The notes under the pieces are model-generated. The model was not told where the DNA came from. It did no database searches and was given only the letters and a program-made list of their open reading frames with translations. A DNA stretch of 54,917 nt from Acidobacteriaceae bacterium (GTDB lineage: Bacteria > Acidobacteriota > Terriglobia > Terriglobales > Acidobacteriaceae), in contig JANYBT010000008.1 of the NCBI GenBank assembly GCA_025360645.1, forward strand, positions 1 through 54,917. Direction: 5' to 3'. The translations under genes were made by a program, and so were the position numbers. Positions 12,626-27,641 of this stretch are shown here, in pieces. How positions within the stretch are numbered: position 1 is the first letter of the stretch; each line of letters opens with the position of its first letter.

Positions 12626-13249
12626 CTATTGGCCGACGACTGGGGCCAGGATTGCCATGGGCCGGTTGAGTTCGAAAATGAGCTCGGTGCCTTCTGGAAC
12701 TGTGACAGAGCGGCGACGGACAAGCCATTGGGTGATGGTAGCGCCGCCGCCGATGGCGCCGCCGATCAGCACGCCGGGGCCGGAGGCGATGAGGCCGCCA
12801 ATCAGCATGCCACCGCCGGTTCCCATCCCGATCTTGGTGAGGTCTTTGCCGTCATGGCCGGGACCCTTGATCTGGCCTTCTTCATTGACGTCGAGGCCGT
12901 GGCGAACGTTAGTGTCCACCAGAGTGGCGGTGAGCAAGAGGCGAGTGCCATCGGGCAGGACGAGGGCTTCGGGAAGGATGCCGATGGCAGGCTTGCCGCG
13001 GAAACGTCGGGGCTGAGACAGAGTGGTGATGCGGCCAGTCAGCAGGGATCCCACGGGAACGACGGTCTTGCCGTCGAGCGCAACCGCCTCGGTGATTTGT
13101 CCCTGAAAGCGGTCGCCGGCCTTGTTCTGGGCGGTGGAGATCCTGCTCTCCAGACGCATGCGGAGGGCGGTTCCCTCGGGGAGACTGGTCTGGGCAAACG
13201 CGATTGAGGTAAGAAGGAACGAACCCAAGAGCAAGAGAAGTTTTTTCAT
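12626..13249 (-). CDS. Exported glycine-zipper protein, unknown function
   Basis: A 207-residue protein. The start at 13249 is chosen because AGAGGTGC precedes it and the first 20 residues (KKLLLLLGSFLLTSIAFAQ) form a signal peptide; the frame is open further upstream without meaning. The mature part begins LPEGTALRMRLESRISTAQNKAGDRFQGQI, a pattern of exported beta-rich domains in acidobacteria that contain a promise of pairs of (V/L)P.G(T/S) strands. A glycine zipper with repeated GGxxGG (residues about 145-170) may span or pack against a membrane. The C-terminus has VPEGTELIFELNRP, echoing the N-terminal strand. I do not recognise a function. The gene runs toward the repeat-rich gap and away from the redox gene behind it. 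Confidence 0.75.
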   Translation of the reverse strand: MKKLLLLLGSFLLTSIAFAQTSLPEGTALRMRLESRISTAQNKAGDRFQGQITEAVALDGKTVVPVGSLLTGRITTLSQPRRFRGKPAIGILPEALVLPDGTRLLLTATLVDTNVRHGLDVNEEGQIKGPGHDGKDLTKIGMGTGGGMLIGGLIASGPGVLIGGAIGGGATITQWLVRRRSVTVPEGTELIFELNRPMAILAPVVGQ

Positions 13250-13280: not shown

Positions 13281-13880
13281 TCAGGATTTTGCCGATTGCA
13301 CTGCTTCCAATACTGGTTCGATGGGAGCGCGGTCGTGCTGGTTGTCGCCGCGATAGATGACCACAATGGTTCCGGCTGAGTTCACGACGAGGGTCGCCGG
13401 ATGAGCGATGTTCAAAGCGTCGGTGCCGACGCGGTGGTAGAGGCCGTAGGCTTTGGTGACGGCGCGGTCTTCGTCGAGCAGGAAGGGAAAGGAAATTGGG
13501 TGTTTGGCGAGAAAGGCAGGGGGCTGGAAGACACCTTCGCGTTTCTCGGCAGCGATGAAGATCCATTGGGCCCCAGACTCGACGATTTGTTTTTTGTAGG
13601 ACTCCACCTGAGCCATGCGTTTGGCGCAGTTGGGTCACCAGGTGCCACGCAGAAACTCGATTACCACAGGACCGCGAGGCATCATGGCAGCGAGGGAAAA
13701 GTCGCCGTCGAAGTTCGCCGCGCTCAGTATGAACGGGGGCGCGGGCGAGCCAGCCTGAAGCGTATCCGTGTGATCTATCACCTGGAGAGAAGAATAAAGC
13801 AGGGGAAGCGACCGAACAACGGAGAATGCAGCCGAGAACCAGAGAAGGTACGGGAGCGGAAGCGCGAGGTTGAGGGCCAT
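13281..13880 (-). CDS. Peroxiredoxin/thioredoxin-fold protein with in-frame UGA at the redox Cys (candidate selenoprotein)
   Basis: Reading through one TGA at 13635-13637 gives a continuous 199-residue protein. It has a hydrophobic N-terminal anchor (residues 1-34), an AGSPAPPF segment typical of AhpC/TSA and thioredoxin-like proteins, and the strand VVIEFLRGTW, followed by the TGA as residue 82, then PNCAKRM. Relatives have GxWCPxC here, so the TGA stands exactly where the first Cys of the CxxC redox motif belongs; the second Cys (85) is kept. The 117 codons after the TGA remain a normal redoxin (FPFLLDEDRAVTKAYG, HPATLVVNSAGTIVVIYRG) and stop at 13281-13283. Bacterial selenoproteins of the peroxiredoxin-like UxxC type are known. 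A simple nonsense mutation is the alternative. The gene is divergent from the Spy-like gene at 13985. Confidence 0.65.
13600..13614 (-). promoter_or_regulatory. SECIS-like hairpin downstream of the in-frame UGA
   Basis: In the mRNA, bases 21-35 after the UGA can form a five-pair stem, GGCUC with GAGUC including one G-U pair, closed by the loop AGGUG. The loop begins 26 bases after the UGA and has G as its second base. Bacterial SECIS elements are described as hairpins whose apical loop lies about 16-37 bases after the UGA with a G among the first loop bases, so position and loop fit. The short stem is a weak point, and a competing pairing (UGCG with CGCA at bases 7-19) exists. Confidence 0.45.
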
Positions 13881-24824: not shown

Positions 24825-26480
24825 CTACTCGATCGTCAGGACATGATGATCGTGGCAACTGGTTTCGATGGCGGAGTAAATGTCGTTAAGCAAGCTGCGG
24901 CCATAGCGGGAAATAAAATAAATTCCTGCAATCTCGCGTTCTTGCAAAGCGTTTTTGGGGAACAGTGACTGGCTCAGGGAATCGGCATGGCGAGTGAGAA
25001 TGACCTGGCGGCGCAACTCGGCGCGTGCGGCGCGCGACTGCAGGCGCTTTAACTGATAGTTCATTTTGGCTGAAGCATTCGCGGCGGCGCCGAGCAAAGT
25101 CGGATCTAACAGGGTAAGCGACTCTTGCAGGCCGGCGAGCGATTCAGCCACTCGCGTGCGCGCCGCTTCAAATCCCTGTTGCACATCGGTTGGAAACGCC
25201 CGCACCGCAACGTTCTCGCGCAAGGCATCCGCGCCGTGGAACAGGTCTTCCAGGTCCAGAGAGTATTTCTTCAACAGACGTTGCGACTTGGGTTCGACCA
25301 AGGTGGCGGAGAAGCGCGGCAGGATTGGCGTGATCCTTCCAAGCAGCGCCTGATAAACCACCGCCGCCTGTGCGAAATACGCCACTTCCGCCGCTCCGCC
25401 GACATACGCCAGCGTCGGCAGCAAGTAGTCTTGCACCACGGGGCGCAGCAGCGCGTTGGGGCTGAAGGCTTGCGGGGCGGCGGCGAGTCGCTCCAGCAAC
25501 TGCGCGGCGGTGAAGGTATTGGCTCCTGCGATAAATTCCGGCTGCGCGGAGGCATTCCGGTTGCCGTTGGAGGGTTTGCGGCGAAGTGGCAGGCGCGCGC
25601 CGTCTTGCAATAGAAACAACAGCGTAGAGAGCGGAGTGACTTTGACCTGCTGATGGTATCCGGCGGACTGGAGCGCCTTGCCGCGGGCCAGCAGCGCGTC
25701 GTCGAGCGCGGCGGCGTCTTCAATTACGCGGCGGTAAAGCGGGGCGGCGATGGCATCGAACGCGGGGTCGGCGCCGTCGAGCAAGATCACGCCGAAGTCG
25801 GCGGCCAGACGCGCCATCAGACGCGCGAATGCGGTGCCTAGAGTTTCGCCGGGCTGATATGCGTCGCGCAATAATTCGGCGGCCTCGGAGCTGCCCAGAA
25901 GGTCGGTAGCCTCCTGCAACACGGTTTCGATTTCAGGACCCAGCGTGACGGCGGCGACGGGAGCCTCCGGCACGCCGTGTGATGACGTGGAGAGTGCGGC
26001 CAGGGTGCCGTCGGGATAAAGAAACGAAGTGTGGTTGACCTCGGCGAGGTCGTGGTCTTCGGTGGCGAGCCAGAACACAGGGACGCAGTCCACGCCCGCG
26101 GCGGTGGCTTCGGCGGCCAGCTTGGCGGCGTGCACTAGTTTGAGAATTGAGTACAGCGGACCGCCGAACAATCCGACCTGCTGGCCGGTGACGATCGCCA
26201 AGGCGCCGTTCTGCAGGCGAGCGATGTTGGCGAGGGTTTTCTCGCCGGAACCGAAGCGCTGGTTCTGCGCGGTCAGGATGGCGGCGACCTTCGCGCGAAG
26301 GGCGTGGTCGTAAGCGATGCGCCCGCGCTCATCCTGAAACCATTCAGCAAATGCGGCGTTGCGCGGATAGAAGGGCTGAAGGGCGGGAGATGCGGCGAGG
26401 AAATCCGCAAAGAGGCGGGTGGTGTGGGGGATGCGGGTGAACGGGAGACACTCCGCCTTCACCGGACCTCCGCACGACAT
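24825..26480 (-). CDS. bshC: Bacillithiol biosynthesis cysteine-adding enzyme BshC
   Basis: A 551-residue BshC, which joins cysteine to glucosaminyl malate in the last step of bacillithiol synthesis. The N-terminus CLPFTRIPHTTRLFADFL and the blocks AIVTGQQVGLFGGPLYSILKLV and FWLATEDHDLAEVNHTSF are hallmarks of the family. A helical stalk near the C-terminus (residues about 430-500) is also typical. The length is near the family norm (530-550). The ATG at 26480 lacks a clear ribosome site. Bacillithiol would be the low-molecular-weight thiol of this organism, which is relevant for the redox proteins at 13.3-14.5 kb. bshA and bshB are not in the window. Confidence 0.95.
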   Translation of the reverse strand: MSCGGPVKAECLPFTRIPHTTRLFADFLAASPALQPFYPRNAAFAEWFQDERGRIAYDHALRAKVAAILTAQNQRFGSGEKTLANIARLQNGALAIVTGQQVGLFGGPLYSILKLVHAAKLAAEATAAGVDCVPVFWLATEDHDLAEVNHTSFLYPDGTLAALSTSSHGVPEAPVAAVTLGPEIETVLQEATDLLGSSEAAELLRDAYQPGETLGTAFARLMARLAADFGVILLDGADPAFDAIAAPLYRRVIEDAAALDDALLARGKALQSAGYHQQVKVTPLSTLLFLLQDGARLPLRRKPSNGNRNASAQPEFIAGANTFTAAQLLERLAAAPQAFSPNALLRPVVQDYLLPTLAYVGGAAEVAYFAQAAVVYQALLGRITPILPRFSATLVEPKSQRLLKKYSLDLEDLFHGADALRENVAVRAFPTDVQQGFEAARTRVAESLAGLQESLTLLDPTLLGAAANASAKMNYQLKRLQSRAARAELRRQVILTRHADSLSQSLFPKNALQEREIAGIYFISRYGRSLLNDIYSAIETSCHDHHVLTIE

Positions 26481-27272: not shown

Positions 27273-27641
27273 GGGGGCGTCACGGTTTCGACGGGGATGC
27301 TTGCGGCCAGGAGGCATGTCGGGGTGCACACACCCGCAATCGCGTGCAAAATGATAATTGCCAATCAACAAATGGCATACGCAGCCTAATTAGTTAGGCA
27401 GCCGTTCTCCACCGCTTTGCTCATGGGCGGTGAGCAGAACGTCACACAGTGAGCCGCTCTTCTCCGCTACGTCTGGGCGGGGAGGCTAAGACCTCAGGCT
27501 AGCGAGAGGCGTTTCTTGTCCGTTCTGAGCGTCGACCGCGAACGTTCCCGGTGAAGGCCGGGAGCATGAACGCGACTACGCATGTAGACTCCTGACCAGT
27601 AACTTTTTCGGACGCGGGTTCGACTCCCGCCGCCTCCACCA
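27273..27641 (+). ncRNA. ssrA: Transfer-messenger RNA (tmRNA)
   Basis: A 369-base one-piece tmRNA. The 5' end GGGGGCGTCACGGTTTCGAC and the 3' end GGTTCGACTCCCGCCGCCTCC plus encoded CCA are diagnostic, and GGGGGCG at 27273-27279 pairs with CGCCTCC at 27631-27637 as a seven-pair acceptor stem. The tag frame is best read from GCC at 27360 as Ala-Asn-Gln-Gln-Met-Ala-Tyr-Ala-Ala, stop TAA at 27387-27389, which ends in the Ala-Ala recognised by ClpXP-type proteases and is of the AN.Q.AYAA kind I recall from other acidobacteria. It rescues stalled ribosomes together with SmpB. Pseudoknot details were not checked base by base. Both flanks hold TA relics. Confidence 0.95.

Follow-up and report, generated by a model that had tools for sequence, protein, structure and literature searches.

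The DNA analysed here, hereafter the window, is the whole 54,917-nucleotide contig JANYBT010000008.1 of an Acidobacteriaceae bacterium (assembly GCA_025360645.1). Translation of its minus strand showed that the frame 13880..13281 contains a single internal UGA, at codon 82 (13637..13635), in the context VVIEFLRGTW*PNCAKRMAQ. As the first-pass annotation of this DNA had claimed, the UGA of this redoxin frame sits where GTW[C]PNC would have its first Cys; beyond it the second Cys is kept, and 117 more intact codons precede the stop. The readthrough product matched Pfam Redoxin (PF08534, E 5.1e-21) and AhpC-TSA (PF00578, E 2.2e-18), both matches spanning the UGA, so that the window protein combines these families with a UxxC motif.

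In 31 of 41 orthologues a start codon lies exactly 48 codons 5' of the UGA, and in six more one lies 47–50 codons 5' of it; 16 of the 41 have an in-frame stop 48–59 codons 5' of the UGA, shortly before the conserved start. The conserved start distance and these upstream stops point to GTG 13781 as the most likely start. The predicted redoxin-family selenoprotein gene would then occupy 13281..13781 (minus strand; stop TGA at 13283-13281) and encode 166 aa, with selenocysteine (Sec) as residue 49 and the second Cys of UxxC as Cys52 (13626..13628, minus strand), and the upstream extension of the open frame (13782..13880, minus strand) is probably untranslated. By eye, neither of the two candidate starts in the window has a clear Shine-Dalgarno sequence before it. 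The number 82 given to the UGA in the first-pass annotation is thus correct for the open frame, but the likely start makes it residue 49.

Downstream on the same strand lies a gene for a 207-aa protein (12626..13249) with a signal-like N terminus and a glycine-rich stretch, whose product is apparently exported. No Pfam or NCBIfam model scored over its cut-off for this protein. By tblastn, its homologue adjoins 31 of 40 other orthologues of the redoxin gene, including the one Acidobacteriota form with Cys at the site. The gene is a probable operon partner of the selenoprotein gene, and its product is possibly a functional partner.

A redox setting had been argued from a neighbouring Spy-like gene and the bacillithiol pathway. 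Both genes are real: the Spy-like gene matched Metal_resist (7.4e-20) and LTXXQ (5.3e-14), and bshC (BshC, bacillithiol biosynthesis; 24825-26480) scored 460.5 bits against a cut-off of 265.8. However, a search of 82 overlapping orthologue loci with 1.5-3 kb of flanking sequence revealed no Spy homologue, so the Spy-like gene lends no support and a Spy-linked redox cluster was rejected. The bshC gene lies ∼11 kb away, and a link between bacillithiol and electron donation to the selenoprotein is possible. The window also contains a tmRNA gene (27273-27641; Rfam RF00023, 175.2 bits).

Conservation of the UGA and selection on the frame

An orthologue is present in at least 41 of the 298 genomes of the order, the source genome included; 40 were grouped at E below 1e-34, together with a contig-end fragment at 3.1e-16. 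Because a protein of another group (in G070, with FYRGEWCPYC and 34% identity) scores as high as this fragment, the group is delimited by motif and identity. Among the matches listed, TGA occupies the site in all 41 orthologues that show it, and TGAC does so in 40; the carriers span 24 genera of one family. The same codon being UGA in 41 of 41 orthologues argues that it did not arise by chance. Cys52 is encoded by TGC in all 40 orthologues and forms an invariant alignment column.

A second sample, which overlaps the 298-genome set, consisted of 56 named loci on GTDB contigs; of the 50 that could be read by motif, 42 had TGA and eight had Cys. The Cys forms comprise four from Brevibacillus, three from Chloroflexi and one from the Acidobacteriota clade, L111, which is labelled Edaphobacter aggregans, has TGC at the site and is the only Cys orthologue found inside that clade. 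A tree of 42 rows, whose bootstrap was not fully settled, placed L111 inside the clade with support of 96/93 and requires at least two changes between Sec and Cys; among its rows, the window protein has its closest relative at 66% identity. In the genome of L111 (completeness not stated), no SelB over the cut-off and no tRNA-Sec were found, the only match over the gathering score being a tRNA-Ser by ARAGORN, and by eye only two of the five core pairs of the hairpin described below could form. The UGA is thus conserved within the group and exchanges with Cys in homologues, the pattern by which selenoproteins are recognised. The pattern that the first-pass annotation had set against its own reading, an intact Cys in relatives and decay in this copy, did not appear among relatives from other genera, the source genome being the only one of its genus analysed.

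Two further UGA forms with FFRGTW*PRC (L122 and L128), which fall outside the Acidobacteriota clade of the tree, come from unclassified bacteria (FW021 bins). No relative was found in the viral contigs scanned; 50 plasmid records matched, all below 60% identity, and the ten listed were below 30%.

The frame runs on past the UGA in 38 of the 40 orthologues that could be followed. In the other two, the frame is shifted before the UGA (L060) or after it (L061), either by assembly errors or by true decay. In the region 3' of the UGA, Nei-Gojobori dN/dS was 0.07-0.21 in 10 of 12 pairs (0.578, 0.129, 0.147, 0.21, 0.114, 0.212, 0.071, 0.098, 0.142, saturated, 0.128 and 0.185); the value of 0.578 belongs to the closest pair, which has few changes. 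In the region 5' of the UGA, dN/dS was 0.05-0.46, with the same one pair saturated, and comparison of the two regions indicates that in most pairs constraint is no weaker 3' of the UGA than 5' of it. The region after the UGA is under purifying selection.

Selenocysteine machinery in the source genome and its relatives

The first-pass annotation had proposed a search of the full genome for selA, selB, selD and a tRNA-Sec, and had taken absence of selB or tRNA-Sec as refuting its reading; all four are present. The source genome, a draft of 3.8 Mb in 158 contigs, is 99.89% complete. Its tRNA-Sec scored 71.2 bits against a gathering score of 47, and ARAGORN assigned it the anticodon TCA (UCA); SelB, SelA and SelD scored 366.8, 543.3 and 361.5 bits against cut-offs of 242.25, 267.9 and 125, respectively.

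Across the order, SelB scored above the cut-off in 133 of the 298 genomes, a survey in which only four candidates were scored per genome. These comprised 37 of the 41 UGA carriers versus 96 of the 257 non-carriers (Fisher p 7e-11, uncorrected for kinship). A second search, which scored every candidate, covered only the four carriers without SelB over the cut-off: in one, pieces of SelB lie on two contigs, and in the draft assemblies of the other three no SelB above the cut-off was found. All four have a tRNA-Sec. Three further UGA-carrying genomes, reached through the named loci, all have SelB over the cut-off; in two of them (G299 and G300, both drafts) no tRNA-Sec over the cut-off was found among 150 candidates scored per genome.

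A conserved hairpin downstream of the UGA

A bacterial SECIS-like hairpin lies at 13600..13614 (minus strand). Its 5-bp stem (GGCUC/GAGUC, with one G-U pair) joins 13614-13610 with 13604-13600 around the loop AGGUG (13609-13605), which has G at its second position. A hairpin with a G-containing loop, starting 26 bases after the UGA, had been proposed in the first-pass annotation. Such a hairpin is present and conserved; its stem starts at the 21st base after the UGA and its loop at the 26th, at a spacing of 25 nt.

Forty orthologues align without gaps after the UGA, and columns 23-28 pair with columns 34-39 around a 5-nt loop AGNNN. Over these 40 sequences, 95.4% of the cells are paired, compared with 93.0% in letter shuffles, 0 of 500 of which were as high, and at most 41.3% when the partner was slid by 1-3 columns. 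Two-sided changes occur in nine cells at two pairs (GC to AU and UA to CG), a count that 0 of 500 shuffles reached. The number of pairs with a two-sided change and the number of pair types are both unsupported, since 158 and 496 of 500 letter shuffles, respectively, were as high. With these results on two-sided pairs and pair types, three of six pairs invariant and a C-A mismatch in the stem of five of the 40 sequences, covariation alone is modest. A pairing GAACUG/CAGUUC from +5 was rejected on inspection by eye, its third pair being broken in several sequences, including the window, and a 3-bp helix that RNAalifold adds at +9 was set aside.

Synonymous resampling, which keeps every amino acid, is a stronger control than letter shuffles. 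All five core pairs are present in 35 of the 40 orthologues; resampled sequences had them in 6% of cases on average and 20% at most, and 0 of 1000 draws reached the observed count. Codon choice in the hairpin is correspondingly biased: Ala is encoded by GCT in 26 of 33 cases against a background of 12%, Glu by GAG in 38 of 38 and Gln by CAG in 40 of 40, and all 16 Ser codons are TCN, although AGC or AGT account for 86 of 240 Ser codons in the rest of these genes. The hairpin is therefore conserved beyond what the amino acids require, i.e. it is under selection.

The limits for bacterial SECIS elements given in a 2026 review are a loop of 3-9 nt, a stem of 4-16 bp, a spacing of 16-37 nt and a G in the first two loop positions (PMC13188914), and the hairpin, with its 5-nt loop AGNNN, stem of 5-6 bp and 25-nt spacing, falls within them. 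The window hairpin alone has a folding energy of -5.0 kcal/mol, weaker than the limit of -7.5 kcal/mol set by one published SECIS model (Figure 2 legend in PMC13188914). The stretch +14..+50 reaches -7.5 kcal/mol in 31 of the 40 sequences, whatever structure forms, and in 35 of 40, the window included, the minimum-energy fold of +18..+45 contains the core stem; in longer stretches, the minimum-energy fold of the window differs from the hairpin.

Proposed function of the gene product and its known relatives

The conserved UGA, the machinery, the hairpin and the purifying selection all support the selenoprotein reading. We have little doubt that Sec is inserted at the UGA, as predicted from these data, and consider it very likely that the redoxin gene is a selenoprotein gene with a redox function. 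SelB carrying Sec-tRNA-Sec would bind the hairpin just 3' of the UGA, and Sec would be inserted at residue 49 of a 166-aa, probably cytoplasmic product with a peroxiredoxin fold and a UxxC active site. Sec49 would most likely act as the nucleophile that attacks a disulfide or oxidised thiol, and Cys52 would resolve the resulting Se-S bond, so that the protein as a whole would be a thiol:disulfide oxidoreductase on a peroxiredoxin scaffold. With the "stop" decoded as the active-site selenocysteine, the seemingly broken gene almost certainly makes an intact redox protein, apparently likewise in dozens of related species.

The fold and the active site bear differently on the chemistry. The AlphaFold2 model (pLDDT 92.9, pTM 0.90) has as its closest solved folds, among the matches listed, peroxiredoxins and not oxidoreductases, the best being Bcp4 3hjp (Z 23.8, rmsd 1.8, 156 aligned), with AhpE 4x0x also among them (Z 23.2, rmsd 1.7, 152 aligned). 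In profile alignments, Sec49 corresponds to the S/T of the peroxiredoxin S/TxxC and to the first Cys of the ResA CxxC, and Cys52 to the peroxidatic Cys of PrxQ 2cx3 and the second Cys of ResA. R45 aligns with the Pro of 2cx3, and the invariant Pro (P128) aligns with an Arg of 2cx3 and with the Pro of the Trx-family protein 3kcm. PxxxTxxC together with an Arg goes with peroxidase activity, and CxxC together with a cis-Pro goes with thiol:disulfide oxidoreductase activity.

Alternatively, the protein could be a true peroxidase, either with Cys52 as the peroxidatic and Sec49 as the resolving residue or with Sec49 attacking the peroxide. Its fold, closest to Bcp/PrxQ, AhpE and typical 2-Cys peroxiredoxins, the alignment of Cys52 with the peroxidatic Cys of 2cx3 and the matches to Redoxin and AhpC-TSA are all consistent with such an enzyme. 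However, of the four universal residues of the peroxiredoxin motif as generally given (PxxxTxxC...R), only the Cys is kept; R45, Sec49 and the invariant Pro take the places of the Pro, Thr and Arg, and a peroxidase is accordingly the less likely outcome. These replacements favour the thiol:disulfide oxidoreductase, which from the active-site residues appears the more probable chemistry.

Other rivals concern the UGA itself. Readthrough as Trp or Cys without SelB is possible in principle, and four carriers have no SelB over the cut-off; yet those four have a tRNA-Sec, the hairpin fits SelB recruitment, and the selenoprotein gene itself terminates in UGA, which indicates that UGA also serves as a stop in the source genome. 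We regard this readthrough as highly unlikely. The plain alternative in the first-pass annotation, a Cys-to-stop point mutation in a dying gene, would need only one base, TGA differing by one from TGC or TGT. It is contradicted by the same UGA in all 41 orthologues from 24 genera, by the intact frame in 38 of 40, by dN/dS and by the conserved hairpin, which together leave it a very slight chance. A sequencing or assembly error in a draft of 158 contigs has a negligible probability, for assemblies made separately from various soils, bogs and groundwaters share this UGA. Pseudogene, sequencing error and readthrough without Sec were thus rejected in favour of selenocysteine.

UxxC peroxiredoxin-like proteins are indeed, as the first-pass annotation had stated, a known group of bacterial selenoproteins: the Sargasso Sea and GOS surveys report them (PMC1088965, PMC2398784), and Table 1 of the 2026 review lists a Prx-like thiol:disulfide oxidoreductase (PF00578) and a Redoxin family protein (PF08534; example HEU0032618.1), both UxxC (PMC13188914). 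As described there, the former are, like the window protein, distant peroxiredoxin homologues with UxxC and Sec first (PMC13188914, PMC1088965), their named members coming from Geobacter, other Deltaproteobacteria, Syntrophomonas and marine metagenomes. The latter, also termed Prx-like 3, share with the window protein the family of its best Pfam match and the UxxC motif (PMC13188914, PMC2398784). By the description in the marine survey, however, Prx-like 3 gave an E-value above 0.001 against pfam08534, compared with 5.1e-21 for the window protein, and had 2,608 Cys homologues versus 68 Sec forms (PMC2398784), whereas the subfamily of the window protein is nearly Sec-only.

Oxidoreductases of the ResA/TlpA type share GTW[C/U]PxC and the position of the Trx-family Pro with the window protein, which, unlike them, would lack a membrane anchor provided that translation starts at the GTG, and has a fold nearer to peroxiredoxins. 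The Sec peroxiredoxin PrxU/Prx (TxxU) shares the peroxiredoxin fold, but the Sec of the window protein lies three residues earlier, at the Thr position. No NCBIfam model reached its cut-off for the window protein, the scores being 44.8 of 170 for ResA, 31.9 of 120 for a SelL-related model, 26.3 of 140 for thiol peroxidase and 13 of 270 for PrxU, so a new family model could be made.

A 2006 survey reports four selenoproteins of three families in Acidobacteria (PMC1794560), and a study using deep-Sep reports three selenoproteins in Occallatibacter riparius (PMC12013277); the main text of PMC5029168 does not mention Acidobacteria. Our literature search, confined to main texts of mainly open-access papers, found no listing that names the subfamily of the window protein. 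The gene adds a member to the known UxxC Prx-like and redoxin selenoproteins, in a nearly Sec-only Acidobacteriota subfamily with a conserved, apparently exported neighbour. It is an even question whether this is a distinct, almost obligately Sec redoxin subfamily of Terriglobales, in which the Pro, Thr and Arg have given way to a Trx-like Sec/Cys site, with an exported partner next door and no curated model.

An annotation that reads the UGA as a stop would end the protein at residue 48 and lose the redox site, and the same loss would be expected in dozens of related genomes. The group, with its 41 Sec forms and a single Cys form whose genome yielded no Sec machinery in the searches, offers a natural series for asking why Sec is kept. 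These soil bacteria probably use selenium in several redox enzymes.

Other in-frame UGAs were seen during the searches. The SelD gene of the source genome (L018, G000:C103:10512-11441) has one in AAG*ASK, close to the start of the SelD match. In three more redox genes of the same genome a UGA falls within a redox motif. Two of these, both Prx-like, contain it in RGNW*PFC (L148, G000:C129:26086-26460) and RGYW*PFC (L150, G000:C37:12307-12756), and similar genes with RG[YH]W*PFC occur in other genomes (L064-L067). The third, a peroxiredoxin-like gene (L154, G000:C33:35488-35898), has its UGA in FTGG*TQEM, at what looks like the peroxidatic position of the TxxU type.
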